From contig NZ_JAMZDZ010000001.1 of the NCBI RefSeq assembly GCF_024172085.1, forward strand, positions 8,370,001 through 8,434,000: a stretch of 64,000 nt of DNA. Direction: 5' to 3'. Under the pieces are notes generated by a model. The model did no database searches and was not told the origin of the DNA. It worked only from the letters and a program-made list of their open reading frames with translations. Of this stretch, positions 38,765-64,000 are shown piece after piece. Positions within the stretch are counted from its first letter, which is position 1. Each line of letters begins with the position of its first letter. This DNA comes from Hamadaea flava (GTDB lineage: Bacteria; Actinomycetota; Actinomycetes; Mycobacteriales; Micromonosporaceae). A program made the position numbers and the translations under genes.

Positions 38765-38778
38765 GGTCGAAAGTCCCG
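38765..38778 (-). promoter_or_regulatory. DosR-like box between ABC exporter and cupin genes
   Basis: On the minus strand it reads GGGACTTTCGACCT. It sits in the 274-bp gap between divergent units (starts 38641 and 38916) and could serve either. The similar cupin at 49 kb also has a box, which supports cupin control. Confidence 0.6.
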
Positions 38779-49529: not shown

Positions 49530-49543
49530 GGGACTTTGGTCCT
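49530..49543 (+). promoter_or_regulatory. DosR-like box upstream of cupin gene
   Basis: GGGACTTTGGTCCT is one base from the best box in the window (59325). It precedes the leftward cupin gene. The remaining part of the 49419-49605 gap shows an AGTCCC half-site at 49515-49520 but no gene. Confidence 0.75.
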
Positions 49544-49605
49544 GCCGGCCCGCCGGGCGCCCAGCTCGGGAGCGATCCCATCGAGCGCGTCGAGCGGTCG
49601 AGCGG

Positions 49606-49902
49606 TCAGAGCCGGTCTAGTCCGCCCGGCAGCCAGAGCAGGTCACGCGCGGCGGCCCGGGCCATCCGCCAGAGGGAGATGTCCTCCCGGGCACCGCGGA
49701 GAGCCAGCAACGACGTCGTCGCCAGCAGCAGGCCGTAGAGGATCTGCGCGAAGCCCAGGAAGACGAGGGCGACGGCGGGCAGATGGTGGCGCAGTTCGCC
49801 GAGGACGGCGGCCGCACCACAGGTCAGGATGCCGGCTACGGTCAGCCGCAGCCCGGCCAGATGCAGTCGGTAGTGTCTGGTGCGTCTCACCTGAGCGACC
49901 AT
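49606..49902 (-). CDS. Small two-span membrane protein
   Basis: This 98-residue protein has a basic start (MVAQVRRTRHYRLH), helices at about 17-37 and 43-65, and a cytoplasmic tail (REDISLWRMARAAARDLL). No motif is recognised. ATG at 49902 is preferred to an upstream TTG. There is no box directly upstream. It ends close to the cupin promoter region. Confidence 0.65.
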   Translation of the reverse strand: MVAQVRRTRHYRLHLAGLRLTVAGILTCGAAAVLGELRHHLPAVALVFLGFAQILYGLLLATTSLLALRGAREDISLWRMARAAARDLLWLPGGLDRL

Positions 49903-49939
49903 GCCGCCACAGTAGGCCAAGGCTCCGACATCCGCGCTG

Positions 49940-50857
49940 TCAGTCCCGATGCCGAAAGCTGGACCTCGGCTGGAGTCCCAGCTCGCTGGTCGCCCCGAGG
50001 TGCTGAAGCTTGTCCGGGTTGACGACGGAGTGGATGGTCTGGATGCGCCCGTCCACGATGCCGACGCCGAGAACGCCGACGATGCGGCCCTCGGCGTCCG
50101 AGGCGACCACCCCGGACTGGCCGTTGACCGTGGTCACCTCGACGCGTACGCCGAGTTGTGCCAGGCGGGGCAGCCAGCGCGCGAGGATCTGGGCGACCTG
50201 ACGCCGGCCGGTGACCGGGCGGCCGAGCGCGGGGACCTTGCCGCCGCCGTCGCCGTGGAACGCCACGTCGTCGGCCAGCAGCCGCTCCAGTTCGGACAGG
50301 TCGCCCCGTTCGGCGGCGGCGAAGAAGCGCCTGGTCAGCTCGTCGCGCTGCTGCGGCGAGGCGTGATAGCGCGGGCGGCGCTGACGCACATGATCGCGGG
50401 CGCGGGCGACGAGATGCCGGGCGGTGTCCACATCGGTGCCGATGATCTCGGCGACCTCGGCGTACGGGTAGTCGAACACCTCCCGGAGCAGGAAGGCCGC
50501 TCGCTGCGCCGGGGTGAGGTTCTCCAGCAGCACCAGGAACGCCAGCGACAGCGAATCCGCCGTCTCGGCCTGCTCCGCCGGAGACGGATCGGTGACCAGC
50601 GGCTCGGGCAGCCACTCGCCGACATAGCGCTCCCGGCGTACGCGGGCCGACCGCAGCTGGTCGATGGCCTGCCGGGTGACCAGCGTCGCCAGGTACGCCC
50701 GGGGTGAGGCGATCGGCTCACCCCGGCGCATCGTCTGGTGCATCCGCAGGAAGGCCTCCTGCACCACGTCCTCGGCGTCGCTGACGCTGCCGAGCATCCG
50801 GTACGCGATCGCGAAGGCTTTCGGTCGCAGCTCGCTGAACAGATCCGTCTCCGGCAC
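49940..50857 (-). CDS. ECF41-family RNA polymerase sigma factor (SigJ-like)
   Basis: This 305-residue sigma factor has region 2 at about 8-75 (AFAIAYRMLGSVSDAEDVVQEAFLR), region 4 at about 105-160 (LTPAQRAAFLLREVFDYPYAEVAEI) and a SnoaL-like C-terminal domain (about 170-300). Diagnostic ECF41 motifs are WLPEPLV in the linker, DGGGKV in the C-terminal domain and NPDKL near the end. In ECF41 proteins the extra domain controls activity in place of an anti-sigma factor. GTG at 50857 lies 5 bases after the reductase stop, so the two are co-transcribed, the usual ECF41 arrangement. Confidence 0.93.
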   Translation of the reverse strand: MPETDLFSELRPKAFAIAYRMLGSVSDAEDVVQEAFLRMHQTMRRGEPIASPRAYLATLVTRQAIDQLRSARVRRERYVGEWLPEPLVTDPSPAEQAETADSLSLAFLVLLENLTPAQRAAFLLREVFDYPYAEVAEIIGTDVDTARHLVARARDHVRQRRPRYHASPQQRDELTRRFFAAAERGDLSELERLLADDVAFHGDGGGKVPALGRPVTGRRQVAQILARWLPRLAQLGVRVEVTTVNGQSGVVASDAEGRIVGVLGVGIVDGRIQTIHSVVNPDKLQHLGATSELGLQPRSSFRHRD

Positions 50858-50862
50858 GGCGG

Positions 50863-51807
50863 TCAGTCCATCCCGTCGCGGAAGCCGGCACGCCAGCTCG
50901 GGAAGCGCAGCGTCCAGCCCAGCTCCCGCTTGGCCTTGTCGCTGGTGACGCCGCGCGCCTGGGTCATCAAGCTCACCACGCCCTTCCCGGCGACGAGGCG
51001 TACGAGCCAGGCCGGCACGCGCCGCGGCGGCGGAGCGCCCAGGATCCGGGCCAGTTCGGGCAGCCAGACGGCGATGGCGGCCGGGTCGTCGTCGGCGACG
51101 TGGTAGACGCCGGTCGTGCCACGTTCGACCGCTGCGACGGTCGCCGACGCTGCGTCGGCGATGTGCACCATCGACCACACTCCGGTGCCGCCGCCGATGA
51201 TCGGGAACTTGCGCTGCCGGATCTGCTCGGTCATGACCGCGTCCGGTGCGGCGCTGAGACTGGTGCCGGGGCCATAGAAGCCACCGTAACGAAGCGCGAT
51301 GCCGTCGGCCCAGCTGATCGAGGTGACCGCCGCCTCCAGATGCCGCAACGCGGCCACCGACGTACGCAGGTCGGCGGGCGGATCCGGTTCGACCTGCTCG
51401 GTCTCGTCGGCGAGCCGCATGCTGGTGCGCTGCATCCACAGCGCGTTGCTCTGCGCCACGATCTTGCGTACGCCGGCCGCGCGAGCTGCTGCCAGCAGGT
51501 GATCGGTGCCCTCCGTGCGCAGCCGGTCGGTCGCGGCCGCCATCTGCTTGGCGTGCCGGAAGTCGAGCGGCCCGCTCAAGGCCGTCAGCTGGTGCACGAC
51601 GACCTCCGGTTCGGCTCGGGCGACCGCTTCCGCCACGGATTCGGGATCGAGCGCGTCGACGACGACCGCTTCGGCCCCCAGCGCCCGCAACGCGGCCAGT
51701 TTGGCCGGCGTACGCGTAGTTCCGACGACCTCGTGGCCGCGCGCGACGAGCTGGCTGACGAGTTGGGTGCCGATCGCGCCGGATGCGCCGGCAAGAAAGA
51801 TCTTCAT
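50863..51807 (-). CDS. NAD(P)-dependent epimerase/dehydratase-like oxidoreductase
   Basis: This 314-residue extended short-chain dehydrogenase has nucleotide-binding motif GASGAIG at residues 7-13 and ALRYGGFYGPG near 171. The classical YxxxK is not obvious, so it may be an atypical or NmrA-like member. It is upstream of, and coupled to, the ECF41 gene. ECF41 operons typically contain an oxidoreductase or carboxymuconolactone decarboxylase that is the sigma factor's target. Confidence 0.87.
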   Translation of the reverse strand: MKIFLAGASGAIGTQLVSQLVARGHEVVGTTRTPAKLAALRALGAEAVVVDALDPESVAEAVARAEPEVVVHQLTALSGPLDFRHAKQMAAATDRLRTEGTDHLLAAARAAGVRKIVAQSNALWMQRTSMRLADETEQVEPDPPADLRTSVAALRHLEAAVTSISWADGIALRYGGFYGPGTSLSAAPDAVMTEQIRQRKFPIIGGGTGVWSMVHIADAASATVAAVERGTTGVYHVADDDPAAIAVWLPELARILGAPPPRRVPAWLVRLVAGKGVVSLMTQARGVTSDKAKRELGWTLRFPSWRAGFRDGMD

Positions 51808-51856
51808 GCACCTAAGACGAGACGGTCCGGCCCGCTATGAACGGCGGTAACCCAGG

Positions 51857-53161
51857 TCACACGGCGGACCTGCCGTGCCGCACCTGATCGGCGTGAATCG
51901 CCAGCTGGTCGGCCTCGCGGCGCATCGCGGCCAGCAGCACCGGCAGATCGGGATGACGGTCGGCATCGGCCTGGACGGCGACGACAAGTCTCCCCGCGTA
52001 CGACACCGCGAGGAAGCCGATGGTCATGTTGCCCACGACGGTCCCGATCGGGACGACCTCGAGAACGGTCGCTTCGAGCAGCCGCACCGGCGACGCCGGA
52101 CCGGTCACGTCGCTCTCCATGAAGTTGATCATTCGCTGGCGGCGACTGAACCAGCGCAGCACGCCCAGTCGGGACAGCCCGATCAGCAGTGCGTTTCCCG
52201 CCGTCGGCGCTTGCCCGCCCTTCGCTTCGGCGGTTTCGCGTGCGATCGCTTCCAGACGCCGGTGCACATCGGCGGTCAACGGCACGCGTATCGCGAGGCC
52301 GCCCGTGCGGTTGCCGCCGTCGGAGGCGCCCGCCTCGCGTACCGACACCGCCACCGTGGCGTGCAACTCGACGCCGTCCGTCGGTTCGGACCGAGATCGC
52401 AGCAGCGCACGGAGCCCGCCGGCCGCCAGCGTCAACACGACGTCGTTCACCTTGGCACCGTGGCGATGCGCGGTTTCCTTGGCCCGATCGAGATCCAGCG
52501 TGACGGCGTCGAGCCGCCGGTGCGCACCGACCGGCCCGTTCAGCGACGTGCGGGGCGCGTTGCGCAGACCGGCCATCTGCCGGAAGGTCGTGGCGCTGGG
52601 CCGCCGCAGCGTACGCAGGCCGGCCAACCGTCGCGCGACGTTGTCGCGAACCAGGTCCACCCACGTGGGCCGAGGCAGCGTACGGCCCGCTGGGACGGCC
52701 GGAGCGTCATCGGCGAGCGCAGCGAACATGCGAATCGTGGTCAGCCCATCGGCCACCACGTGATGCATTGCGAATACCAGGGCGGCGCTTCCGTCGGGCA
52801 GGCCGGTGACGAGCCAGATCCGCCACGGCGGAAGATCGCGGGCGAAGGGCCGGTTGGCCAGGCGTACCGCGAAGTCGGTCAGCCGCACACCGGCGGGCAG
52901 GACGGCCGACCTGACGTGACGACCGACGTCGAACTTCGGCGAGTCGACCCAGATCGGCCGTCCGCCGAGCCATCCCGGCCGGTAGACGACCTGCCGCAGC
53001 CGGGGTGCGCCAGCCACTCGGTCGGCGATGCGCCTGCGCAACATCCCTAGCTCGACCGGACGGTCCAGCAGAGCGAGCGCGCCCACCCGGGCGGGCGACG
53101 ACGGCGACTCGACATACAGGTTGATGAGATCGGTGGGGGTCAGCCGCTCGATCCTCCTCAT
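51857..53161 (-). CDS. Wax ester synthase/diacylglycerol acyltransferase (WS/DGAT)
   Basis: This 434-residue acyltransferase has catalytic HHVVADG at 133-139 and the C-terminal conserved NVPGP-equivalent SDVTGPASPVRL near 342-353. Family enzymes make triacylglycerol or wax ester from acyl-CoA. In M. tuberculosis the DosR-controlled member is Tgs1. The divergent CBS gene and the four DosR-like elements between them (53177-53260) suggest the same control here. ATG at 53161 has GGAGG almost abutting it, so initiation may be leaderless or use a poorly spaced site. Confidence 0.9.
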   Translation of the reverse strand: MRRIERLTPTDLINLYVESPSSPARVGALALLDRPVELGMLRRRIADRVAGAPRLRQVVYRPGWLGGRPIWVDSPKFDVGRHVRSAVLPAGVRLTDFAVRLANRPFARDLPPWRIWLVTGLPDGSAALVFAMHHVVADGLTTIRMFAALADDAPAVPAGRTLPRPTWVDLVRDNVARRLAGLRTLRRPSATTFRQMAGLRNAPRTSLNGPVGAHRRLDAVTLDLDRAKETAHRHGAKVNDVVLTLAAGGLRALLRSRSEPTDGVELHATVAVSVREAGASDGGNRTGGLAIRVPLTADVHRRLEAIARETAEAKGGQAPTAGNALLIGLSRLGVLRWFSRRQRMINFMESDVTGPASPVRLLEATVLEVVPIGTVVGNMTIGFLAVSYAGRLVVAVQADADRHPDLPVLLAAMRREADQLAIHADQVRHGRSAV

Positions 53162-53176
53162 GCCTCCAGCGTTCCC

Positions 53177-53260
53177 GGGACCGTTGGCGTCGCCCAGGGC
53201 CGTTCGCCCTGAGCTGGGCCGCCATGGGACCTTCGGCCCGACGGGCGGGACCGGTGCCTC
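53177..53260. promoter_or_regulatory. Array of four DosR-like elements between DGAT and CBS genes
   Basis: Elements are GGGACCGTTGGCGT (53177-53190), AGGGCCGTTCGCCCT (53196-53210), GGGACCTTCGGCCC (53226-53239) and GGGACCGGTGCCTC (53247-53260). The last is centred about 43 bases before the start predicted from TAGCGT at 53284-53289, the position expected for an activator next to RNA polymerase. Spacing of 21 bases between the last two fits same-face binding. Confidence 0.7.
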
Positions 53261-53283
53261 TGAGCAGCGGCGTGGGGCGCCCC

Positions 53284-53289
53284 TAGCGT
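53284..53289 (+). promoter_or_regulatory. Predicted -10 box for the small ORF/CBS unit
   Basis: TAGCGT matches the TAnnnT pattern. No -35 consensus is present at the right distance; instead a DosR-like element is there, consistent with an activator-dependent promoter. Start of transcription would be near 53296. Confidence 0.5.
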
Positions 53290-53364
53290 CAAAGTGGGGA
53301 GACGGGGCGACAGGAATCCGCCGAGACCCGGCGGCGCCGCGGGCACCCGCGCAAGGAGGTCGAC

Positions 53365-53442
53365 ATGAACTTCCGCATCGTCGGCGGCGAGCTGAGTCCG
53401 GCCGCCCGAGCCGCGTCCCAGGCCGGGGAGGCGACGTCATGA
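53365..53442 (+). CDS. 25-residue small ORF coupled to CBS gene
   Basis: The frame encodes a 25-residue peptide beginning MNFRIVGGELSPAARAAS. AAGGAGGT (53353-53360) lies 4 bases before its ATG and is stronger than the CBS gene's own site. Its TGA overlaps the ATG of the CBS gene (ATGA), so translation is coupled. It may be a true small protein or a leader that sets CBS-protein synthesis. Confidence 0.6.
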   Translation: MNFRIVGGELSPAARAASQAGEATS

Positions 53443-53870
53443 CCCCCACGGCGACGCGGCGTACCCGGCTCACCGACCAGCGGGTCGCCTCGATCATGTC
53501 GCGACCGGCGATCGCCGTCCGCGAGTACGCGACGCTGTCCGACGCGCTGACCGCGTTCGCCGCGTCCGGCCTGCGCCACCTCGTCGTGGTCGACCCGGCC
53601 GGGCACTGCCTGGGGATGCTCAGCGATCGGCTGGTCGCCGGCGCCTGGGCGGCGAACCCGGCGTGTTTCGACGACGTACACGTCACCGCGCTGCTGGAAC
53701 CGGACCAGCCGATGGTCGCGTCGACGGCGACGATCGGGCAGGCCGCGCGGGTGATGCATCGGCTGGGCACGGACGCGGTGGTGCTGGTCGACGCCGTCGC
53801 CGAGCCGGTCGGCGTGCTCACCGCGTCCGACCTGATCGGGCTGCTGGCCAAGCCGTCGCGCGACGGATGA
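53439..53870 (+). CDS. CBS-domain pair protein (Hrp1-like)
   Basis: This 143-residue protein consists of two CBS motifs: first about 14-75 (ASIMSRPAIAVREYATLSDA; LVVVDPAGHCLGMLSDRLV), second about 80-140 (DAVVLVDAVAEPVGVLTASDLIGLL). CBS pairs bind adenosyl ligands or other small molecules. M. tuberculosis Hrp1, a DosR-regulated protein, is of the same size and layout. Regulation is probably through the DosR-like array upstream, with the coupled 25-residue ORF in between. Confidence 0.9.
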   Translation: MTPTATRRTRLTDQRVASIMSRPAIAVREYATLSDALTAFAASGLRHLVVVDPAGHCLGMLSDRLVAGAWAANPACFDDVHVTALLEPDQPMVASTATIGQAARVMHRLGTDAVVLVDAVAEPVGVLTASDLIGLLAKPSRDG

Positions 53871-53933
53871 CGCTCAGGGCCTGAAACAGGCAAGCCCGGA
53901 GGCGACGGAAGTCCGGCCGCAGATCGCGGCAGA

Positions 53934-54524
53934 TTACGGTCTGCGGGACGGGAACAGCAGTTGCACGGCGGCGACGATGGCCGCCCGGCGGTCCGCGAGG
54001 AAGGCGTCGCGGTCCTCGTCGGGGACGGTGACCAGGGCGGGATTGCCCGCCCAGGACATCGCGAGCTGGTTGACGAACATCAGGACGTCCATCGGGTCCC
54101 AGCCGTCGTCGAGCTGACCGGCCTCTTGCGCCTGGCGCAGCTGTTCGACCTTGTGGTGGACCGACTCGCGGAGCGGGTCGTCGGACGTCTGCCCGTCCAG
54201 CGACAGCTCCATCTGGCCCCAGGTCATCAGGCGCCGGCGAGCCGGATGCTGGAGGAAGTAGTCGTGCACCCGCCCGGCGTAGCCCGGAAGGTCGGCGGGG
54301 TCCAGCCGGGTGGCTTCGGCCACCGCTGCCAGTTCCCGGGTCGCGACGAACCGGTAGAGCGCCTCCTTGCTCTGGAAGTACGCGTAGACGCGTTCCTTGC
54401 TCGTCTTGGCCGCCTTGGCGATCCGCTCGACCCGGGCGCCGGCGATGCCGTGCTCGGAGAACTCCGCCGTGGCCGCGGCGACGATGCGGTCGCTCGTCGA
54501 ATCGGTGCTGATCGGGGCCGCCAT
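53934..54524 (-). CDS. TetR-family repressor
   Basis: This 196-residue protein has an N-terminal helix-turn-helix (RIVAAATAEFSEHGIAGARV, then KTSKERVYAYFQSKEALYRF) and a variable ligand-binding C-terminal domain. It is divergent from an aldo/keto reductase gene, with two near-identical palindromes between them. It is expected to repress both until an unknown ligand, probably a reactive carbonyl or reductase substrate, binds. Confidence 0.93.
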   Translation of the reverse strand: MAAPISTDSTSDRIVAAATAEFSEHGIAGARVERIAKAAKTSKERVYAYFQSKEALYRFVATRELAAVAEATRLDPADLPGYAGRVHDYFLQHPARRRLMTWGQMELSLDGQTSDDPLRESVHHKVEQLRQAQEAGQLDDGWDPMDVLMFVNQLAMSWAGNPALVTVPDEDRDAFLADRRAAIVAAVQLLFPSRRP

Positions 54525-54539
54525 GCTCTGAGCGTACTC

Positions 54540-54607
54540 AACCGAACCGTTCGGTTTGGCGGAGTGGGATCCGCGCGGGTACGTTCAAACCGAACCGTTC
54601 GGTTTGA
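54540..54607. promoter_or_regulatory. Two TetR operators
   Basis: ACCGAAC C GTTCGGT occurs at 54541-54555 and again at 54589-54603. The second is extended on both sides to a 23-bp perfect palindrome (54585-54607). Centres are 48 bases apart. They lie between the divergent starts 54524 and 54636, close enough to each to block both promoters. Confidence 0.92.
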
Positions 54608-54635
54608 CTTTGGCTGGGTTTGAGGAGCGACACCC

Positions 54636-55562
54636 ATGAAGAACAGGACATTGGGCCGGGAAGGTCTCATCGTCTCCGAGATCGGCTACGGCGCGATGGG
54701 CACGGCGATCGGCTACGGGCCGTCGGACGACACCGAGTCCATCGCCGCGATCCGCCAGGCTCACGACCTCGGCGTGACGCACTTCGACACGGCCGAGCTG
54801 TACGGCTGGGGAGTCGGGGAGCGGCTGCTCGGCAACGCGCTCGCGCCGATCCGCGACCAGGTGACCATCGCCACCAAATTCGGGTTCACCCCGACACTTG
54901 GCCGCGATTCCCGGCCGGAGCACATCCGCGAGGTCGTCGACAACAGCCTGCGCAACCTCGGCGTCGACACGATCGACCTGCTCTACCAGCACATTCCGGA
55001 CCCGAACGTGCCCATTGAGGACGTCGTCGGCGTCATGCGGGAATACGTCCAGGCCGGCAAGGTGAAGTACCTCGGACTGTCCAATGCCGACGCCGACACG
55101 ATTCGGCGGGCACATGCGGTGCACCCGATCTCGGCGCTGCAGAACGAGTACTCGATCTTCGCCCGCGGGGTCGAATCGCTGCTGCCGGTGCTCGACGAAC
55201 TCGGCATCGGCTTGGTGGCGTACTCGCCGATCGCCCGGGGCTTCCTCAGCGGCGCGGTCCAGCACCGGGACAGCTTGGCCGCCGACGACTGGCGTCAGCG
55301 CGTCGCCTGGTGGAACCCGGAGAACTTCGACGCCAACGTGGCGATCGTCGGCGAGCTGGCCAAGCTCGCCGAGAGCAAGGGCGCGACCGTGGCGCAACTG
55401 GCGCTGGCCTGGGTGCTCGCGCAGCAGACCGACATCGTGCCCATCCCGGGCTCGCGCAGCTCCGCCCGGGTCGCCGAGAACATCGCGGCCGCCGACCTGG
55501 TGCTCACGGCCGAGGACCTCGCCCGCATCGCCGAGATCGCTCCGGACGGCGGCATCGCCTGA
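54636..55562 (+). CDS. Aldo/keto reductase
   Basis: This 308-residue NADPH-dependent (beta/alpha)8 reductase has catalytic Asp and Tyr in FDTAELYGWG near residues 49-58, Lys in IATKFGF near 84 and His in LLYQHIPDP near 117. Cofactor-site residues are in PGSRSSARVAENI near 272. It would reduce aldehydes or ketones. It is probably induced when the adjacent TetR releases its operators. Confidence 0.95.
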   Translation: MKNRTLGREGLIVSEIGYGAMGTAIGYGPSDDTESIAAIRQAHDLGVTHFDTAELYGWGVGERLLGNALAPIRDQVTIATKFGFTPTLGRDSRPEHIREVVDNSLRNLGVDTIDLLYQHIPDPNVPIEDVVGVMREYVQAGKVKYLGLSNADADTIRRAHAVHPISALQNEYSIFARGVESLLPVLDELGIGLVAYSPIARGFLSGAVQHRDSLAADDWRQRVAWWNPENFDANVAIVGELAKLAESKGATVAQLALAWVLAQQTDIVPIPGSRSSARVAENIAAADLVLTAEDLARIAEIAPDGGIA

Positions 55563-55593
55563 AGAGCGGCTTGACGGGCTGGACAGCCGGACG

Positions 55594-55624
55594 GCCCGGC
55601 GACGCGGGGAGCGTCACCGGGCCG
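55594..55624. terminator. Terminator hairpin
   Basis: GGCCCGGCGACGC (55594-55606) pairs with 55612-55624 with one mismatch and a 5-base loop. It lies between the convergent reductase (ending 55562) and membrane-protein (ending 55649) genes. Confidence 0.82.
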
Positions 55625-55648
55625 GACCCGGGGGAGATCACTTCACGA

Positions 55649-56299
55649 TCACTTGGCCGTGGCCTTGGCCTGTTCGGTTTCGACGAGGGCGAAGCCGGTC
55701 GATTTCGGGGTGGTGAAGGCGTGGGCGAGTCCGGCCAGCGCCAGCAGGAGCATCAGGGCGGCGGCGCCGTAGGCGACGAGTGCGGCCTGACCGGCCTTGG
55801 TGCCGAATTCGCTGAAGCCGTAGCTGGTCAGCAGCAGGCCGCGCAGGGTTTCGCCTTTGAAGACGGTCTCCCGTTGAGCGGTGACGTCGGCCAGTTGCTT
55901 GGTCAGGTCGTCGACCTTGGCCTGGTCGACCGGGGTGGCCTTCTGTGCCTCGGTCAGCTGGTTCTTCAGCTGCGTCTGGGGGGTGCCGAGGTCGGCGTAG
56001 GTCTGGCCGCCGGCGATCGACTTCAGGTGCAGTCCGATGAATTCGTTGGCGTAGCACTCGGCTTGCTTGCCGGTGGTCATCGGCTGGCCGGCGTACTCGA
56101 CGAGGCAGGCGGCCTTCTTCTCTTCGTCGGTGAGGGTGTCGGCGGTCTTGAAGGTGATGTGCTGCGCGGCCAGCTGGTCGTGCACGTAGGTGTTGGCGAA
56201 GCTGGCGTTGGCGCCCAGCACGATGCCGGCGACCAGCAGGAGCGCGGCGAGGGCGAGCCCGCCGATGCTGAACAGGAGGTCGAGGGTCCGGCGTTTCAT
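55649..56299 (-). CDS. Two-span membrane protein with extracytoplasmic domain
   Basis: This is a 216-residue protein with membrane helices at about 9-31 and 172-194. Between them lies an outer domain with two Cys (KKAACLVEYAG; QAECYANEF) and a predicted coiled coil at about 108-145 (QLKNQLTEAQKATPVDQAKV). The cytoplasmic tail is short. I do not recognise a family with known function. AAGGAG precedes the ATG. Two DosR-like elements lie 99-134 bases upstream. Confidence 0.8.
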   Translation of the reverse strand: MKRRTLDLLFSIGGLALAALLLVAGIVLGANASFANTYVHDQLAAQHITFKTADTLTDEEKKAACLVEYAGQPMTTGKQAECYANEFIGLHLKSIAGGQTYADLGTPQTQLKNQLTEAQKATPVDQAKVDDLTKQLADVTAQRETVFKGETLRGLLLTSYGFSEFGTKAGQAALVAYGAAALMLLLALAGLAHAFTTPKSTGFALVETEQAKATAK

Positions 56300-56397
56300 G
56301 GTGTGCTCCTTCAGGAGGGGGTGAGAAACACTTCGTTGCCCTCAGAGCATCGGTTCTGGACGGTCGTGGCAGCAGAGACACAGTTCCCGGATCGGGT

Positions 56398-56433
56398 GGG
56401 ACCAAAGACTCCGATCGGAGGGACTGTCAGCCC
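56398..56433. promoter_or_regulatory. Two DosR-like elements upstream of the membrane-protein gene
   Basis: GGGACCAAAGACTC (56398-56411; 12 of 14 to GGGACCAAAGTCCC) and GGGACTGTCAGCCC (56420-56433) are 22 bases apart, two helical turns. They probably act on the leftward gene starting at 56299. Confidence 0.6.
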
Positions 56434-56457
56434 GGCGTCTGGTGTGGATAAGACAAG

Positions 56458-56489
56458 GGCGGTGCGGACCGTCGAAGGTCCACACCGCC
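56458..56489. promoter_or_regulatory. 13-bp inverted repeat between divergent genes
   Basis: GGCGGTGCGGACC (56458-56470) and GGTCCACACCGCC (56477-56489) are complementary in 12 of 13 positions around GTCGAA. The position between two divergent starts (56299 and 56671) excludes an ordinary terminator. It contains inward-facing GGACC/GGTCC steps like the DosR-like boxes. Confidence 0.55.
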
Positions 56490-56605
56490 GTGTCCGGCCC
56501 ACCGGCTCGCCCGCGTTCCCAAGTGGACGTCCGCTCAGGCCCTCCTCGCGGGCTGGCAAGGCGCCGGGCCGCTCCAGCTCAGCTCACCGGTCCCGGTCAC
56601 AGACA

Positions 56606-56619
56606 GAGGACAAAGTCCC
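56606..56619 (-). promoter_or_regulatory. DosR-like box upstream of Acg-like gene
   Basis: On the minus strand it reads GGGACTTTGTCCTC. It lies 51 bases before the GTG of the nitroreductase-like gene, a position compatible with activation of a leaderless or short-leader transcript. Confidence 0.65.
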
Positions 56620-56670
56620 GACCGGCTGCGCCACAAGGCCCTACGCCACATCGTCGATGCGGCGCACCGT

Positions 56671-57534
56671 GTGCCGATGAGACACGCCATCCTCGCCGAG
56701 TGCCTCGAGGCCGCGATCGCCGCGCCGTCCATTCACAACACTCAGCCGTGGCGGTTCCTGCCGCGCGAGCATTGCGTCGACGTGTACGCCGACCGCAGCC
56801 GGCGGCCGGCGGCGAGCGACCCGAACGGGCGCGAGCTGGCCATCTCGGTCGGTGCGGCGGTGCTGAATCTGCGGGTCGCGCTGCTGGCCCGCGGATACCG
56901 GCCGTCGTACGCGCTGCTGCCGGAGCGGTCGCAGGCGGATCTGCTGGCCCGGGTCACCTTCGGCGGGCGCGTTCAGCCGACCTATCGCGCGCGCCGGTTG
57001 GCCGGTGCGATTCCCCGCCGACGGTCCAACCGCGGCCCGTTCCGTTCGGCCGAGCTGCCGGAGCCGGTGCTGACGGAACTGGTCCAGGCCGCTGCCGCCG
57101 AGGGGGCGTACCTGATGATCGCCGACCCGCCGTTGCGGGATGCGGTCCTCGGCGTGGTACGCCGGGCGGAGACCTCGCTCCGGGCCGATCCCGCGTACTC
57201 CGCCGACTTCGCCTGGCCCGGGGTGGTCGAGGACGATCCGACGCTCGCGATCCTCTACGGTTCCGGCGACTCCCGGTACGCCTGGCTGCGGGCCGGGCAG
57301 GCGCTGGAACGCGTCCTGCTGACGGCCACGGCCAACGGCGTGCAGAGCACCCTGATGACGCGGCCCCTGGCGTACGCCGACCTGCGGGCACTGTTCGACG
57401 ACAGCGGGCTGGGCCGACGAGCTCAGGCGATCATCCGGCTCGGCTACGGCGACGAGCCGCCAGCGTCGCCTCGGCGGGCGCTGGCCGACGTCATCATGGC
57501 GGTCCCGGATGAACCGGTCGGTACTGCAGACTGA
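56671..57534 (+). CDS. Acg-family nitroreductase-like protein
   Basis: This 287-residue protein matches the Acg (Rv2032) family: APSIHNTQPWRF near residue 18, DPNGRELAISVGAAVLNLRV near 50-69, RRRSNRGPF near 116 and RAGQALERVLLTATANGVQS near 210-229. Acg proteins have a nitroreductase fold whose lid covers the flavin site; they are thought to sequester FMN or act in stress rather than reduce nitro compounds. Acg is DosR-regulated in M. tuberculosis. Start is GTG at 56671 or ATG at 56677; no ribosome site is obvious. Confidence 0.88.
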   Translation: MPMRHAILAECLEAAIAAPSIHNTQPWRFLPREHCVDVYADRSRRPAASDPNGRELAISVGAAVLNLRVALLARGYRPSYALLPERSQADLLARVTFGGRVQPTYRARRLAGAIPRRRSNRGPFRSAELPEPVLTELVQAAAAEGAYLMIADPPLRDAVLGVVRRAETSLRADPAYSADFAWPGVVEDDPTLAILYGSGDSRYAWLRAGQALERVLLTATANGVQSTLMTRPLAYADLRALFDDSGLGRRAQAIIRLGYGDEPPASPRRALADVIMAVPDEPVGTAD

Positions 57535-57548
57535 TCACCGCCGTCCCG

Positions 57549-59222
57549 TCAGGCCAGCGGTACCGACCAGACCACGCGAGTGCCCTCGTCCGGTGGCGAG
57601 GTCAGGTCCAGGTCGCCGCCGTGCTGCCGGGCGCGTTCGCGGGCGTTGGCCAGCCCGCTGGACTCCTTGGCGCCGCCCCGGCCGTTGTCGTAGACGGTGA
57701 CCGTCAGCCGTCCCGATTGCACCGCGACAGCCATCTCCAGCTCAGTCGCCTGCGCATGGCGTATCACATTGGACAGGGCCTCGTTGACCACGGCCAGGAT
57801 GTCGCCGTGCAGCTCGACCGGCACGGCCGAGTCGACCGGCCCGTCGAGCCGCAGCGCCGGGCGGAACCCGAGCCCGGCGGACGCGCGCTCGGCCAGTCCG
57901 CGGATCTCGGCCCGGAGCGAGGTGGCGGTCGGGGCGCGCAGTTCGAAGATCGCGCCGCGGATGTCGCGGATGGTGGCGTCGAGGTCGTCGACGGACTGGT
58001 GGATGCGATTCGCCACCTCGGGCTTCGTCGCGAGCGCCGCCACGGTCTGCAATTGCAGACCGGTGGCGAACAGCCGCTGGATGACGACGTCGTGCAGGTC
58101 GCGCGCGATGCGCTCGCGGTCGGACAGCAGCAGCAACTGCTCGCGATCGAGGTGCGCCTGGGCGCGGTCGAGGGCGAGCGCGGCCTGGCTGGCGAACAGC
58201 CCCACGAGGCGCAGTTCCTCGGTCTCACGGGGCTCGCCGGCGTAGGCGACGATGAGGGCGCCGCGCGAGTGGCCGAAGGGCGAGATCGACGCGCGTAGCT
58301 CCGGCACGGTGACCGGCCAGGTGGCGGCCTTGCCGACGTGCTCGACCTCCAACTGCTCGCCGCGGGTGATCGCGGCCTCGATCGCCGAGCCCTCCAGCGG
58401 AATCGTCTCGCCGACCAGGCCGTCCAAGGGTTCGATGGAGTCGCAGGCCGCGACGGTCAGGCCGTCGCCGTCGTCGTCGAGCAGGACGACGGTCGTGAAG
58501 ACCGCGTCAGCCGCCTCGCGGGCCTTGCGGACCACGATCGCCAGCGGATCCTGCGCGTCGTGCACGTCGGCGATGGTGGCCGCCACCTCGGCCGTGGCCT
58601 GCAGCCAGCGTTGGCGGCGCCCGGCCAGCGCATAGAGGCGGGCGTTCTCGATCGCGGCCCCGGCGGCGGCCGCGAGCGCGACCATGATCTCCTCGTCGTC
58701 GTCGGAGAACTCGGGCGCACCCTGCTTCTCCGACAGGTAAAGGTTGCCGAAGATGTGATCGCGGACGCGGATGGGCACGCCGAGGAAGCTGTGCATCGGC
58801 GGGTGGCCTGGCGGGAACCCGGCCGACTGCGGATGCCGGGTGATGTCGGGCAGGCGTACCGGGCGCGGGTCGCCGATGAGCAGGCCGAGCACGCCCTTGC
58901 CGGTCGGTGGATTGCCGATGGCCTTGTGGGTCTTCGGGTCCATGCCGTGCGTGATGAACTCGATCAGCTGCCGGTCGCCGCCGATCACGCCGAGCGCGCC
59001 GTACTTCGCGTCCGCGAGGTGACAGGCCGACACGACGATCCGTTCGAGGGTCGCATGCAGATCGAGGTCGGTGCCCATGCCCACGACCGCGTCGAGCAGG
59101 CTGCGCAGCCGCTCACGGCTGTTCATCACGTCGCCCACGCGGTCCAGCAGCTCCTGGAGAAGCTCATCCAGGCGTACGCGCGACAGCGGCGACAGACCGA
59201 GCGAAGTCCACTGCTGTTCCAC
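57549..59222 (-). CDS. DosS/DosT-like double-GAF sensor histidine kinase
   Basis: This 557-residue soluble kinase has GAF-A at about 50-200 and GAF-B at about 215-355. Phosphoacceptor His377 is in RIARDLHDVVIQRLF and the ATPase domain is at about 455-557 (YDNGRGG). GAF-A contains GFPPGHPPMHSFLGVPIRVR; His140 aligns with His149 of M. tuberculosis DosS, the proximal heme ligand. It is therefore probably an O2, CO, NO or redox sensor. GTG at 59222 is the likely start. A perfect DosR-like box lies about 100 bases upstream, suggesting autoregulation. No response-regulator gene adjoins it in the window. Confidence 0.92.
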   Translation of the reverse strand: MEQQWTSLGLSPLSRVRLDELLQELLDRVGDVMNSRERLRSLLDAVVGMGTDLDLHATLERIVVSACHLADAKYGALGVIGGDRQLIEFITHGMDPKTHKAIGNPPTGKGVLGLLIGDPRPVRLPDITRHPQSAGFPPGHPPMHSFLGVPIRVRDHIFGNLYLSEKQGAPEFSDDDEEIMVALAAAAGAAIENARLYALAGRRQRWLQATAEVAATIADVHDAQDPLAIVVRKAREAADAVFTTVVLLDDDGDGLTVAACDSIEPLDGLVGETIPLEGSAIEAAITRGEQLEVEHVGKAATWPVTVPELRASISPFGHSRGALIVAYAGEPRETEELRLVGLFASQAALALDRAQAHLDREQLLLLSDRERIARDLHDVVIQRLFATGLQLQTVAALATKPEVANRIHQSVDDLDATIRDIRGAIFELRAPTATSLRAEIRGLAERASAGLGFRPALRLDGPVDSAVPVELHGDILAVVNEALSNVIRHAQATELEMAVAVQSGRLTVTVYDNGRGGAKESSGLANARERARQHGGDLDLTSPPDEGTRVVWSVPLA

Positions 59223-59324
59223 GAGACAAATGGTACGGCCGGGCGGCGCGGTCGTGGGCGGGCCACCACCCGGGTGACGCACTCGTCACGTCACCCGAGA
59301 TTCCCCGCAACTCCGGCGACCCCC

Positions 59325-59338
59325 GGGACTTTGGTCCC
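59325..59338 (+). promoter_or_regulatory. DosR-like box upstream of the GAF kinase
   Basis: GGGACTTTGGTCCC, the best match in the window, lies in the 355-bp gap between the kinase start (59222) and the small-protein start (59578). I see no gene on either strand in the gap. Confidence 0.8.
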
Positions 59339-59490
59339 CTGATCAGAAACCGGGGCACCCTGCCGCCGACGGCTTCGCCGGGCTGCTGCTCGGCTCAGTC
59401 AGCCGGGCGCTCGTGCATCACGCCCACCACGCGGTCGCCGTGATACACCCGTCCGAAGACTGACCCGCTGGTCGTGAACCACCCGCGACC

Positions 59491-59521
59491 CGGGCTGAAG
59501 TCCCGGCGGGCCTAAAGTCCC
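59491..59521 (-). promoter_or_regulatory. Tandem DosR-like boxes upstream of the P-type ATPase operon
   Basis: On the minus strand these read GGGACTTCAGCCCG (59504-59491) and GGGACTTTAGGCCC (59521-59508). They are 17 bases apart and end 56 bases before the ATG of the small acidic protein. Confidence 0.7.
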
Positions 59522-59577
59522 GGCTCGCGGGACCCGCGGCACTGGGCCGGGCGACGCGCCGGTCGCACGCTGAAGGC

Positions 59578-59802
59578 ATGGCCACGGAAGAAGCCGTCCC
59601 GAAGGAAACCGCCGCGGAGGAAGCCGGCCCGAAGAAGGCCACGCGGGGTCTGCTCCGGAAGTCTCAGGATCACCGCCTGGGGTACCTGCTCGGTGTGGTC
59701 TATCACGACGAAGAGGTCCGCGAGAACTCGCCACCTGACGATCAAACGGTCCGCGACCGCGAAGGCCCGCGGAGCACCCGGCTGGCGGGGCGGGAGGAGT
59801 GA
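59578..59802 (+). CDS. Small charged protein preceding P-type ATPase
   Basis: This 74-residue hydrophilic protein has an N-terminal Glu/Lys/Ala-rich segment (EEAVPKETAAEEAGPKKATRG), then a central LLRKSQDHRLGYLLGVVYHD and a charged tail. No known family. The stop overlaps the GTG of the ATPase gene (GTGA) and DosR-like boxes lie upstream, which argue that it is real and co-expressed. It could be an accessory peptide for the transporter. Confidence 0.65.
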   Translation: MATEEAVPKETAAEEAGPKKATRGLLRKSQDHRLGYLLGVVYHDEEVRENSPPDDQTVRDREGPRSTRLAGREE

Positions 59803-62297
59803 CCGTCACCGCGCCGCAGATCATCGGGCTGACCAGCGCCGAAGCGGCGGCCCGGCGAGACCGCGACGGGCCGAACGAGGTCGCCCGGCCCCGGCCACGC
59901 CACCTGGTCGCCCGGATCCTCGACCAGCTGCGCGATCCGCTCGTGCTGTTGCTGCTGGCTGCGGTGGTCGTCACGATCGCCCTGGGCGACCTGCCCGACA
60001 CCGCGATCATCGCCCTGGTCGTCGTGCTCAACACGACCATCGGCGTGGTCCAGCAGGTCCGCGCGGACCACGCGATCGCGGCCCTGGACACCTTGTCCGC
60101 GCCGACCGCGCGGGTGGTCCGCGACGGTCACGACGTGGTCGTTCCCGCTGCCCAACTCGTACGCGAGGACTGGGTGCGGCTGGAGGCAGGCGATATCGTC
60201 CCGGCGGACCTGGTCGTCGCGTACGCGCATCGCTGCCAAGTCGACGAGGCGGTGCTGACCGGCGAGTCGATGCCGGTCGTCCGGGAGCCCGGCGACGAGC
60301 TGCTGTCCGGCACCGTCCTGGTCACCGGCCGGGCCGAGGGACCGGTACGGCGTACCGGGGCGGACAGTGCGCTGGGCCGGATCGCGTCGCTGGCTCGTGG
60401 GGCCAAGGCGGGCCCGACGCCGTTGCAGCGGCGGCTGGCTGGACTCGGGCGGCTGCTGGGTGCGGCGATCGTGGCGGTGAGCGTGATGGTGGCCGTCCTC
60501 GGTGTGCTCGCCGGCCGGCCCGTCGTCACGATGGCGCTCGTCGCGGTGAGCCTGGTCGTGGCGGCCGTGCCGGAGTCGCTGCCCGCCGTGGTGACCCTCG
60601 CGCTCGCGCTCGGCGCCCGGCGCATCGCCCGGCATCAGGCCATTCCGCGGAATCTGCATGCGGTGGAGACCTTGGGTTCGGTGACCGTGTTGGCCTCCGA
60701 CAAGACCGGCACCGTCACCGAAGGCCGGATGGCGGTCCGGCGGGCCATCGCCGAAGACATCGCGTACGAGGTGCACGGCGCGGGCTATGAGCCGATCGGC
60801 GTGGTGGTGCCCGACCCCGGGCCGCCGCTGCGGGAGCTGGCACGCGCCGGGCTCCTGTGCTCGGATGCGGCACTGCTGCCGCCGGACGACGACCATCCAC
60901 AGTGGTACGCGGTGGGCGATCCGGTGGAGGCGGCGCTCGTCGCGTTCGCGGCCCGCTGTGGTCTGGATCCGCACCAGCAGCGGGCGGCGTACCCACGGGT
61001 GGCGGAGCGCCCGTTCGACCAGGCCGCCCGGCGGATGACGACCGTGCACAAGCGCGGCGACAGTTACTACACCGTCTGCAAGGGCGCGCCGGAGACGGTG
61101 CTGACGGCGCCCGTGGTCACCGGAGACGTCGAGCGTCTCCGGCGGGCCGCCGCCGACTTGGCCGCACAGGGACTGCGGGTGGTCGCCGTCGCGGCCGGGC
61201 AATCCGAGGACCGCATCGACGCTGCCGATCCGCGTGGGCTGTGGCCGCTGGGCGTCATCGGCATCGGCGACCCGTTGCGGGCCGGGGCGAGCCACACCGC
61301 CGGCACGTTCGGCCAAGCCGGCGTACGCATGATGCTGATCACCGGCGATCATCCGAACACCGCCGCCGCCATCGCGCAGCAGCTGGGCCTGTGGCACGAA
61401 GGCGACGGCGTCGGCACCGGCGACCATCCCGAGCAGGCGAACGAGGTGCAGGTCTTCGCGCGTACGCGGCCGGAGCAGAAGATCGACATCATCACCGCGT
61501 TGCAGAGCCACGGCGAGGTCGTCGCGATGACCGGCGACGGGGTGAACGACGCGCCCGCGTTGCGCCGCGCGGACATCGGCGTGGCGATGGGCGGCGGGAC
61601 CGAGGTCGCCCGGCAGGCGGCGGACCTCGTCCTGGTCGACGACAACCTGGACACGGTGACGGCCGCGATCGGCGAGGGCCGGCGCGTGTACGACAACATC
61701 CGCCGGTTCCTGCGCTACGGCCTGGCCGGGGGAGTGGCCGAGCTGCTCGTCATGCTCGCCGGGCCGTTCCTGGGACTGGCCGTGCCGCTGCTGCCCGGCC
61801 AGATCCTGTGGATCAACCTGCTCACCCATGGGCTGCCCGGCGTCGCGCTCGGGGCGGAACCGGCCGAGCCGGACGTGCTGACCCGGCCGCCGCGGCCGCC
61901 GGGCGAGCAGGTTCTCGGTGAGGGCCTGGGCCGGACGATCTTGGCCGTCGGCACGCTCTTGGCGGTCGTGTCGGCCGGGCTCGCGGTGTTCGCCGCCAAC
62001 GCCGGGCTGCCCTGGCAGAGCATGCTGTTCGTGACCCTGGGGCTGGCGCAGCTCGGGGTCGCCCTCGCGGTCCGGGCCCGGCGCGACCGTGCTCACCGGT
62101 GGGCCAACCCGGGGCTGCTGCTGGCCGTCGGGATCTCCGCGCTCGCCCAGATCGGCGGGGTGCTGGCCGAGCCGCTGCGGGTGCTGCTGCGCACGGAACC
62201 GCTCACGGGTACGCAACTGCTGCTGTGCGCGGCCGTGGCAGCGCTGCCAGGGCTGCTGTTGTGGGCGGTGAACCGCCGACGAGGTCGCCGGGCCTGA
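59799..62297 (+). CDS. P-type cation-transporting ATPase (P2, CtpF/PMA1-like)
   Basis: This 832-residue ion pump has TGES in VLTGESMPV near residue 152, the phosphorylated Asp301 in SDKTGTVTEG and GDGVNDAPALRR near 579. Ten membrane helices are likely. The helix-4 motif reads VPESLPAV, like P2-type Ca/Na/K pumps with PEGL. It lacks N-terminal heavy-metal domains. CtpF of M. tuberculosis, in the DosR regulon, is of this class. The GTG at 59799 overlaps the small-protein stop and follows GGAGGA. The second ATPase starts 31 bases after its stop. Confidence 0.93.
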   Translation: MTVTAPQIIGLTSAEAAARRDRDGPNEVARPRPRHLVARILDQLRDPLVLLLLAAVVVTIALGDLPDTAIIALVVVLNTTIGVVQQVRADHAIAALDTLSAPTARVVRDGHDVVVPAAQLVREDWVRLEAGDIVPADLVVAYAHRCQVDEAVLTGESMPVVREPGDELLSGTVLVTGRAEGPVRRTGADSALGRIASLARGAKAGPTPLQRRLAGLGRLLGAAIVAVSVMVAVLGVLAGRPVVTMALVAVSLVVAAVPESLPAVVTLALALGARRIARHQAIPRNLHAVETLGSVTVLASDKTGTVTEGRMAVRRAIAEDIAYEVHGAGYEPIGVVVPDPGPPLRELARAGLLCSDAALLPPDDDHPQWYAVGDPVEAALVAFAARCGLDPHQQRAAYPRVAERPFDQAARRMTTVHKRGDSYYTVCKGAPETVLTAPVVTGDVERLRRAAADLAAQGLRVVAVAAGQSEDRIDAADPRGLWPLGVIGIGDPLRAGASHTAGTFGQAGVRMMLITGDHPNTAAAIAQQLGLWHEGDGVGTGDHPEQANEVQVFARTRPEQKIDIITALQSHGEVVAMTGDGVNDAPALRRADIGVAMGGGTEVARQAADLVLVDDNLDTVTAAIGEGRRVYDNIRRFLRYGLAGGVAELLVMLAGPFLGLAVPLLPGQILWINLLTHGLPGVALGAEPAEPDVLTRPPRPPGEQVLGEGLGRTILAVGTLLAVVSAGLAVFAANAGLPWQSMLFVTLGLAQLGVALAVRARRDRAHRWANPGLLLAVGISALAQIGGVLAEPLRVLLRTEPLTGTQLLLCAAVAALPGLLLWAVNRRRGRRA

Positions 62298-62328
62298 GGG
62301 CGAGCCGGTGACAGCAGGAGGCGATGGC

Positions 62329-64000
62329 GTGATCGCGACCGACTCGGACACGGCTTCGGGTGGGCGACCGCAGCCGTGGTCATTGGACGTTCAGCGTTCG
62401 GCCGCGATGTCGGCTGCGGACGTGCTGAGCGTGCTCGACAGCGGACGGGACGGGATCGGCGACGCCGAAGCCGACCGGCGGCGGGCGATCGTCGGGCCGA
62501 ACGCGGTGCGTACGCACCGGGTGTCGGGCTGGGCCGTGCTGGTCCGGCAACTGCGCTCCGCCCTGCTGGCGCTGCTGCTGGTCGCGGCCACGGTGTCGTT
62601 CCTCGTGGGCCAGCGGACCGACGCCGTGGTGATCGGCGTCATCATGGCGATCAGCGTCGGACTCGGCTTCCTCAACGAGTATCGAGCCGAACGGGCCGGC
62701 GCTGCCTTGCACGATCGCATCCGGCATCGCGCCGTCGTCGTCCGGTCCGGACAGGCGCGGGAGGCCGACGTGACCGAGCTGGTTCCCGGCGACGTCGTAC
62801 GCCTGGAGCTGGGCCAGATCGTCCCCGCCGACCTGCGGCTGCTGGAAACCACCGGCCTCACGTGCGACGAAGCGATGTTGACCGGCGAATCCGTGCCCGT
62901 CCACAAGAGCGCCGACGTCCCGGCGGCCGAGTCCGGGCTCGGCGAACTGTCGTCGTGCGTGCTGATGGGCACTGTCGTGCGGGCCGGGTCGGCGACCGGG
63001 GTCGTGGTGGCGACCGGACCCCGGACCGCGTTCGGGCGGATCGCGGTGGGACTCGGCCGACGGCATCCGCCCACCGAGTTCCAAGTCGGTCTGGCCCGAT
63101 TCTCGACGCTGCTCGCCCGGGTCGCCGCAGTGCTCACGACGATGATCTTCGTCATCAACCTGACGCTCCACCGGCCGATTCTCGACGCGATCTTGTTCAG
63201 CCTCGCCATCGCGGTCGGCATCACGCCGCAGCTGTTGCCGGCGATCGTCACGACCAGCCTGGCGACCGGGACCCGGCGACTGGCCCGGCGGCGGGTGCTG
63301 GTCAAGTGCCTGGTCTGTGTGGAGGACCTCGGCAACATCGAGGTCTTGTTCACCGACAAGACCGGCACATTGACCGCCGGCGCCCTCGCCCTGGAGGAGA
63401 GCCTGGCCGTGGACGGCCGCCCGGCACAGCTGCCGCTGCTGTACGGGCTGCTGGCGAACGAGGCGACGGTGTCGCCGGGTGCGCTGGCCGGGGGTAACGC
63501 GCTCGACCAGGCGCTGTGGCGGTCGCCGGACGCCGCGGCCCAGCCGGTCGCCGACTATCAGCGCTGGGATTCGGTGCCGTTCGATCACGAGCGTCGCCGG
63601 ACCAGCGTCCTCGTGGACGGGCCGGACGGCCGGACGCTCATCGTCAAGGGCGCGCCGGAGGAGATCCTGGCCCGCTGCCAGGGCGAGCTGGACCCGGCCC
63701 GGAAGGTGCTCGATCAGAAGCTGACCGCCGGTGGGCGGGTGATCGCGGTCGCGGCGCGGCCCGCCCCCGGGGCGTCGACGATCGGTCCGGACGACGAGCA
63801 CGACCTCACTCTCGTGGGCGTACTCGTGCTGTCAGACCCGCCCAAATCGGAGGCGGCCGAGGCTCTGGCCCGGCTCGCTCAGCTCGGCGTCGCGGTCAAG
63901 GTCGTCACCGGCGATCATCCGGCCGTCGCCGGCCACGTCTGCCGCCAGGTCGGCCTGCCGGTCGCCGGAGTGGTCGCCGGCAGGCAGCTCGCCGGGATCG
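62329..64000 (+). CDS. P-type ATPase, P3B/MgtA-like (right end cut)
   Basis: About 557 residues are visible before the window ends. TGES is in MLTGESVPVH near residue 184, the helix-4 motif VGITPQLLPAIV near 301 resembles the MgtA motif GLTPEMLPMIV, and the phosphorylated Asp343 is in FTDKTGTLTAG. A Mg2+ uptake role is possible by similarity. GTG at 62329 has GGAGG seven bases upstream; an earlier in-frame GTG at 62308 is an alternative. It is the third gene of the unit with DosR-like boxes. Confidence 0.9.
   Translation, partial: MIATDSDTASGGRPQPWSLDVQRSAAMSAADVLSVLDSGRDGIGDAEADRRRAIVGPNAVRTHRVSGWAVLVRQLRSALLALLLVAATVSFLVGQRTDAVVIGVIMAISVGLGFLNEYRAERAGAALHDRIRHRAVVVRSGQAREADVTELVPGDVVRLELGQIVPADLRLLETTGLTCDEAMLTGESVPVHKSADVPAAESGLGELSSCVLMGTVVRAGSATGVVVATGPRTAFGRIAVGLGRRHPPTEFQVGLARFSTLLARVAAVLTTMIFVINLTLHRPILDAILFSLAIAVGITPQLLPAIVTTSLATGTRRLARRRVLVKCLVCVEDLGNIEVLFTDKTGTLTAGALALEESLAVDGRPAQLPLLYGLLANEATVSPGALAGGNALDQALWRSPDAAAQPVADYQRWDSVPFDHERRRTSVLVDGPDGRTLIVKGAPEEILARCQGELDPARKVLDQKLTAGGRVIAVAARPAPGASTIGPDDEHDLTLVGVLVLSDPPKSEAAEALARLAQLGVAVKVVTGDHPAVAGHVCRQVGLPVAGVVAGRQLAGI

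Follow-up and report, generated by a model that had tools for sequence, protein, structure and literature searches.

A probable DosR/OsdR-type regulon in Hamadaea flava, confined to two chromosomal islands

Does the actinomycete Hamadaea flava carry a dormancy regulon of the DosR/OsdR type, and which genes would it control? The question is raised by a stretch of 64,000 bases (the window), bases 8370001-8434000 of the single-contig genome of 8,864,410 bases. An initial annotation had listed twelve related 14-mers there, most of them in promoters, and had proposed that genes for an Acg-family protein, a WS/DGAT acyltransferase, a CBS-domain protein, a P-type ATPase and a DosS-like kinase lie together behind such boxes as one oxygen-, NO- or redox-responsive regulon. 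Domain searches confirm that these genes lie together behind boxes (Table 1). With an orthologue of the regulator close by, a kinase with a haem-type GAF domain and boxes before the Acg, WS/DGAT, CBS and ATPase genes, the window very probably represents the larger part of a DosR/OsdR-type regulon.

The DosR-type regulator on which that proposal had been made to depend is encoded 3.5 kb past the window end. Its best match in the PDB is DevR (3c3w; 242 bits, E = 3e-71), the next being VraR at 164 bits, and both Asp54 and the recognition helix LAEKTVKNYVS are identical to those of DevR. Asp54, K179, K182 and N183 are invariant in all 97 regulator proteins of more than 70% identity; the two lysines and N183 contact DNA. 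The gene has a box of its own, a perfect DevR core (GGGACTAAAGTCCC) at 8437487, 50 bp before its start. Copies of dosR scoring at least 215 bits were found in 46 of 61 genomes, including 31 of 37 within the family, and the next level of matches scores at most 171 bits. On one side dosR is neighbored by genes for a nitroreductase, a double universal stress protein (usp) and a cNMP-binding protein, and on the other by a gene for an ATP-grasp/CoA-ligase protein with a GNAT domain, which stands behind a box at 8440911.

The kinase combines a GAF domain bearing the haem-ligand His and the distal Tyr with HisKA_3 and HATPase domains, which by sequence is the composition of the DosS/DosT haem kinases; its GAF region matches DosT at 3.9e-52 and DosS at 3.3e-48. 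It is 92% identical to the kinase of Hamadaea sp. Bin2.24 and 70% identical to that of Hamadaea tsunoensis. Among its 90 cluster relatives, 84 were long enough to align, and the positions of DosS His149, Tyr171 and the phospho-His are conserved in all 84, while the position of DosS Glu87 is Gly in 82 and a gap in two. His149 of DosS is described as the haem ligand and Tyr171 as serving ligand discrimination, and the Gly that DosT has at the Glu87 position as going with a stable oxygen complex (PMC4082495). By analogy, the window kinase would form a stable oxygen complex, as DosT does.

All twelve 14-mers are present, at or one base from the positions first given, and all twelve are intergenic by our own gene calls, which came from a caller based on codon position. 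The consensus first drawn from them, GGGACYTTNGGYCC, did not survive as a definition of the box, since with up to two mismatches it occurs 10 times in the window against 8.0 expected, and 25 of 100 shuffles reach 10, which is chance level. We therefore scored the half-sites GGGAC-N4-GTCCC (GGGACNNNNGTCCC) as matches out of 10 positions, and our conclusions are based on this score with reversed-pattern controls. Between 49 and 64 kb of the window, four intergenic sites (49530, 53226, 59325 and 59508) score at least 9/10, against 0.05 expected at the frequency seen elsewhere in the genome (Poisson P = 3e-7), and eleven score at least 8/10, against 1.06 expected. Bases 1-49000 contain no site of at least 9/10 (0.12 expected) and one of at least 8/10 (2.5 expected). 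About nine of the twelve proposed boxes stand, mostly in three promoter regions, and two more, at 56375 and 59529, had been overlooked. Sites 35078 and 53177, both 7/10, were rejected as being at background level, the latter being absent also from the aligned promoter of G003, which with G002 is one of the Hamadaea relatives used for promoter alignments. Site 59491 (8/10, 17 bp from 59508) lies just beyond the stretch aligned with G003 and is doubtful.

Score and alignment with other Hamadaea together support boxes 53226, 53247, 56398, 56420 and 59508 as candidate regulator sites. Box 53226 stands 72 bp upstream of the WS/DGAT gene, and the 105 bp from this box on can be aligned, at 74%, to a promoter that precedes a run of genes in G003, both boxes and their spacing being kept while the flanks have diverged. 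The same core, GGGACCTTCGGCCC, is shared by the OsdR sites predicted upstream of SCO0167, SCO0216 and SCO5979 in Streptomyces coelicolor, as reported in the site predictions of PMC5069765, where the SCO5978/SCO5979 fragment is also reported to be bound by OsdR in vitro; the window box thus equals the core of a site in an OsdR-bound fragment. Boxes 56398 and 56420 are retained wholly or partly in G003 and G002, and the surroundings of box 59325 align with a weaker box in G003. The site at 56606 keeps its ACAAAGTCC block identical across three Hamadaea species despite a score of 7/10. Box 49530 lies 119 bp upstream of the second cupin gene; no orthologous promoter was found for it.

The boxes of the window form tandem sets, 53226/53247 at 21 bp, 56375/56398/56420 at 23 and 22 bp, and 59508/59529 at 21 bp. 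In the kinase loci of relatives, weaker sites around strong ones peak at a distance of 22-23 bp (72, against about 5 expected), and in the dosR and membrane-protein loci they peak at 21-24 bp (16, against 2.2 expected). By spacing, then (21-24 bp in relatives, 21-23 bp in the window), strong and weak sites are adjacent, as they are for DevR of Mycobacterium tuberculosis, described as binding cooperatively to a strong site and an adjacent weak one, with the proximal site overlapping the -35 element (PMC3029386, PMC5360333).

At exactly 9/10, 80 kinase loci of relatives contain 185 intergenic and 80 genic sites (92 and 6.2 per 100 kb), against 13 intergenic and 101 genic for the reversed control. 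In single relatives, sites scoring at least 9/10 number 6 intergenic and 1 genic in G003 (57 kb), 9 and 2 in G001, 6 and 0 in G020, and 6 and 4 in G034; in G003, a close relative, a single contig carries the matching genes in a span of about 55 kb. Proteins encoded in the kinase loci fall into 38 clusters of at least four genes, whose identities were taken from single members. Counts of boxes upstream of each cluster are partly circular, as are the other counts made there with the family matrix, because the sites from which that matrix derives had been preselected at 9/10 in these very 80 loci. With that limit, boxes precede 80 of 99 genes in the cluster of NarL-type regulators (dosR together with a few genes related to the other NarL-type regulator of the window), 51 of 63 and 45 of 73 in two clusters of Acg-like nitroreductases, 48 of 55 phosphoketolase genes, 15 of 41 genes for a P-type ATPase with a hemerythrin domain, 8 of 11 DoxX-like genes and 4 of 7 in the window ATPase family. 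Three further clusters, that of the kinase included, are boxed, and 28 of the 38 are unboxed. Of the 212 intergenic sites in the kinase loci, 143 are hybrids of one GGGAC and one GGGCC half. The pairing of these two halves as a general rule was rejected, as the 29 dosR loci give AA 5, AC 10, CC 6 and other 10 (31 in total), near independence, and the excess in the kinase loci is probably due to shared ancestry.

Several observations weigh against a regulon of this type. In a sample of the bulk genome, at least 9/10 is reached by 7 sites in 230,893 intergenic positions (3.0 per 100 kb) and by 66 in 1,368,067 genic positions (4.8 per 100 kb), so that in this sample the box has no promoter preference; the sample was drawn on a 110-kb grid as 80 pieces of 20 kb each, 1.6 Mb in all or 18% of the genome, with the piece overlapping the window omitted and the next shifted by 4 kb, which leaves both islands described below outside it. 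A whole-genome scan allowing one mismatch returned 63 matches to GGGACYWWNGGYCC against 157 for the pattern read backwards, and among the 11 of these 63 places that were inspected, six intergenic and five genic, none was accepted as an outlying member. The 20-kb dosR neighborhood of G019 has no intergenic and one genic 9/10 site. The 80 kinase loci are mostly from Micromonospora, and their counts are not independent. A box of its own precedes just 7 of the 90 kinase genes of relatives, and two clusters that are usp-like by their first residues have boxes in 0 of 49 and 0 of 48 cases. Finally, the kinase and regulator genes of this genome lie 8 kb apart, unlike osdR and osdK, described in PMC5069765 as one operon; in the relatives' loci L009 and L091 the two are adjacent.

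The islands differ from the bulk genome. They lie at 8.42-8.44 Mb and at 7.78 Mb, and were counted as the window from 49 to 64 kb together with two 20-kb loci, L002 (7.77-7.79 Mb) and L005 (8.434-8.454 Mb). Here at least 9/10 is reached by 9 sites in 8,708 intergenic positions (103 per 100 kb) and by one in 46,253 genic positions (2.2 per 100 kb). At the outset, a motif no rarer within genes than in promoters had been named as one finding that would speak against the proposal; this is seen in the bulk genome and not inside the two islands. A genome-wide regulon is therefore rejected; boxes in target promoters exceed background, as for DevR/DosR, in the two islands and not in the genome as a whole, and the regulon is confined to these two chromosomal islands.

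Table 1. Genes and boxes of the window and its surroundings. Positions are those of the window unless marked as genome coordinates; box scores are matches out of 10 half-site positions.
Feature	Position	Strand	Basis or remarks
DosR orthologue, 212-residue NarL-type regulator	8437538-8438176 (genome)		beyond the window end
Cupin (Cupin_7), possible outlying member	38943..39389	+	Pfam
Cupin (Cupin_7), possible member	49020..49418	-	Pfam
ECF sigma factor with SnoaL-like domain	49940..50857	-	Pfam
NAD-dependent epimerase-like protein	50863..51807	-	Pfam; between WS/DGAT and sigma factor
WS/DGAT acyltransferase (Tgs1-like family)	51857..53161	-	Pfam WS_DGAT_cat, 9.8e-39
usp remnant (leader and first codons)	53352..53389	+	inside 25-codon open reading frame (ORF) 53365-53442
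Two-CBS-domain protein (Hrp1-like by domain content)	53439..53870	+	Pfam, orthologues
Two-TM (transmembrane) helical membrane protein, 216 residues, conserved likely target	55649..56299	-	
Acg-family FMN-binding protein	56671..57534	+	NF047509, 246 bits (cut-off 199)
DosS/DosT-type sensor histidine kinase	57549..59222	-	Pfam GAF, HisKA_3, HATPase; GAF-GAF-HisKA_3-HATPase, second GAF inferred
74-residue ORF, genus-restricted	59578..59802	+	overlaps ATPase start
P-type cation ATPase (P2 type by domains)	59799..62297	+	Pfam, NCBIfam
Possible box AGGTCGAAAGTCCC	38764..38777		8/10, intergenic; family matrix score 10.8
Box GGGACTTTGGTCCT	49530..49543		9/10
Primary box GGGACCTTCGGCCC	53226..53239		9/10; GGGACCTTAGGCCC in G003
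Weaker box GGGACCGGTGCCTC	53247..53260		8/10; same distance from 53226 kept in G003
Weak box GAGACACAGTTCCC	56375..56388		8/10
Box GGGACCAAAGACTC	56398..56411		8/10; GGACCAAAGAC identical in three Hamadaea
Box GGGACTGTCAGCCC	56420..56433		8/10
Possible box, shorter spacer (GGAC-AAA-GTCC)	56606..56619		7/10; 58 bp before Acg start
Box GGGACTTTGGTCCC	59325..59338		10/10, perfect palindrome; 110 bp before kinase
Box GGGCCTAAAGTCCC	59508..59521		9/10; 63 bp before 74-residue ORF; one change in G003
Weaker box GGGACCCGCGGCAC	59529..59542		8/10; GGGACCGGCGGCAC in G003

Of the newly proposed members, the 216-residue membrane protein is strongly supported. In a first set of 17 loci, which counts both copies of this genome and has L047 as a repeat of L124, 16 have a box of at least 8/10 within 260 bp, and the exception, L123, has two stronger boxes some 0.4-0.5 kb upstream. 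When the search was widened to the order, 53 of 298 genomes proved to have a match; 30 loci were returned, 27 of them from genomes outside the first set and 16 from one genus. Under the strict pattern, 27 of these 30 promoters show an 8/10 box whose centre lies 65-130 bp upstream of the start, whereas two position-matched control patterns give 2 and 0 of 30; a 9/10 box is found at this distance in 14 of 30, with none for the controls. A relaxed pattern at 8/10 was uninformative (30 of 30, control 26 of 30). On the evidence of these promoters, the membrane protein very likely belongs to the regulon. A second copy of the gene and its promoter lies in the other island, bases 55591-56549 of the window and 7782831-7783789 of the genome (in L002) differing at one position in 959 bp; because of this single difference, the duplication between the islands is judged to be recent.

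The protein is hydrophobic at both ends and has no Pfam or NCBIfam family and no match in the PDB. An AlphaFold model from five sequences (pLDDT 85.7, pTM 0.67) has helices at residues 3-46 and 126-196, and a search of the PDB for similar folds gave none at E of 0.001 or less (best 0.08, TM 0.24). Of 14 aligned members, 9 have both of two cysteines in the loop and the other five have neither; kept or lost together, these cysteines suggest an outward-facing disulfide. We would give about even chances to the idea that the actinobacterial DosR response has in this protein a core effector not described before, present in several families of the order and having, through such a disulfide, a redox or envelope role at low oxygen.

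Characteristic targets of DevR/DosR are Acg, WS/DGAT, CBS, Usp, P-type ATPase and HSP20 proteins. All of these but HSP20 are found near boxes in this genome; an HSP20 gene was seen in the G003 island and was not searched for here. The other new members proposed by the initial annotation fare less well than the membrane protein. The two cupins, paralogues of 52% identity, are possible members, and among three other Hamadaea they have no good match, the one weak match (29%, with two stops) being in G002. The 74-residue ORF follows the conserved pair 59508/59529, and its relatives among 61 genomes are confined to this genome and G003 (a weak match of 57% over part of the length, with a stop). The ABC-2 exporter is unsupported as a member; the only site nearby is 38764, which lies 130 bp before the adjoining small PLDc_N gene (38432-38641) and 172 bp before the cupin gene at 38943. 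The WS/DGAT, epimerase-like and ECF sigma factor genes are co-directional (49940-53161) behind the 53226 promoter, and from this spacing the sigma factor may be read together with the WS/DGAT gene and hence be under DosR. At 44437-47800 of the window, genes for a rhodanese, a YgaP-like protein, a TauE exporter, an MBL-fold/rhodanese protein and a CsoR-type metal-sensitive repressor are neighbors and may form a cluster for sulfur or persulfide stress.

Behind the 53226 promoter the genes differ between relatives. In G003 the equivalent promoter is followed by genes for a pyridine-nucleotide oxidoreductase-like flavoprotein, dsrC, dsrE, usp and CBS, with a pyruvate-formate-lyase-like glycyl-radical gene diverging on the other side, the whole (L185:525-5140) arranged around three box-like sites; fermentative and sulfur-relay targets are possible there. 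In the window, the genes before CBS are missing except for the first codons of usp (the remnant is 92% identical to the usp start in L002 and G003), and the WS/DGAT gene has the place that the lyase-like gene occupies in G003. We infer that the promoter stayed while the genes behind it changed. A second fragment, at 59358-59450, matches part of a usp gene at 82% identity, and both fragments lie between boxes and the present genes. Phosphoketolase genes within the genus are boxed in two of two island copies and in none of three outside (one cut by a contig end). At L002:8589-9093, a box (GGGCCGAAGGTCCC) precedes an Rv2632c-like (PF08962) gene, adjoining a match to the hydrogenase-maturation-protease family.

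An alternative reading takes the window's set for a decaying remnant, in which boxes survive while the regulon has lost many targets and does little. The two usp fragments, the flavoprotein, dsrC, dsrE and usp genes missing behind the 53226 promoter, and the absence of phosphoketolase from the window island all fit that account. Nevertheless we consider it improbable, given that boxes 53226 and 53247 both stay while their flanks diverge, that regulator and kinase retain their key residues, and that the membrane-protein gene was recently copied to the second island together with its promoter. Chance is a far weaker contender. The boxes might be G+C-rich palindromes without function, as the chance-level count of the earlier consensus in the window and the background level of the half-site motif elsewhere in the genome would suggest; the excess of intergenic 9/10 sites between 49 and 64 kb, the retention of boxes in relatives and the recurrence of these sites upstream of the same genes in other genera refute this for the main sites, making it nearly inconceivable as a general account, and it stays for 35078, 53177 and 59491.

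It is also very unlikely that the boxes are read by some other NarL-type regulator. One candidate is encoded in the window itself (39457-40116), with its own kinase (40113-41336); it is of the same superfamily as the DosR orthologue, to which it is 46% identical, and NarL-type regulators often bind related inverted repeats. The kinase of this candidate, however, has no GAF domain by Pfam, and the sole site nearby is 38764, whereas in the DosR orthologue every residue of the recognition helix is that of DevR, and its gene has a perfect box and adjoins the island.

A DosR/OsdR-type regulon thus remains the preferred reading. Once oxygen falls, or the haem takes up NO or CO, Asp54 of DosR would be phosphorylated by the kinase; phosphorylated DosR on a primary box would help a second dimer onto the weaker neighbor, and would so switch on the WS/DGAT, CBS, Acg, membrane-protein, kinase, ATPase and dosR genes. 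The likeness to DevR/DosR and DosS/DosT of M. tuberculosis extends from the orthologous regulator with the same recognition helix and the haem GAF kinase to GGGAC-N4-GTCCC boxes that pair a strong site with a weak one next to it, and to the Acg-type, WS/DGAT, CBS and P-type ATPase targets. The promoter between WS/DGAT and usp/CBS, divergent around a box pair, resembles that described for tgs1-Rv3131 (PMC3029386). Unlike in M. tuberculosis, one kinase was seen near the regulator, DosT-like by the Gly at the DosS Glu87 position, and the targets of the genus go beyond those of that species in including phosphoketolase, the lyase-like glycyl-radical enzyme and the 216-residue membrane protein (no mycobacterial genome was searched by name for the last). 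With OsdR/OsdK of S. coelicolor the Hamadaea system shares the type of site, and the OsdR core regulon is likewise described as lying around the regulator gene; the consensus published there differs (AGGGCCGATCGGCCCT; PMC5069765), and phosphoketolase is not mentioned in the text of that paper. Titles and abstracts among the matches listed in the open-licence literature contain no description of a DosR-type regulon in Micromonosporaceae.

The system itself is known, then, from mycobacteria and Streptomyces, and one target family, that of the membrane protein, is apparently new and undescribed. With the regulon, a family of soil actinomycetes would join the carriers of an oxygen-linked dormancy switch whose best-studied case is in a pathogen, and the switch could be studied safely in them. 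The regulon would also show which targets are widely shared, and the membrane protein offers a concrete unknown whose role can be tested. The 53226 promoter, apparently kept while the genes behind it were changed, may illustrate how such a regulon alters its content.

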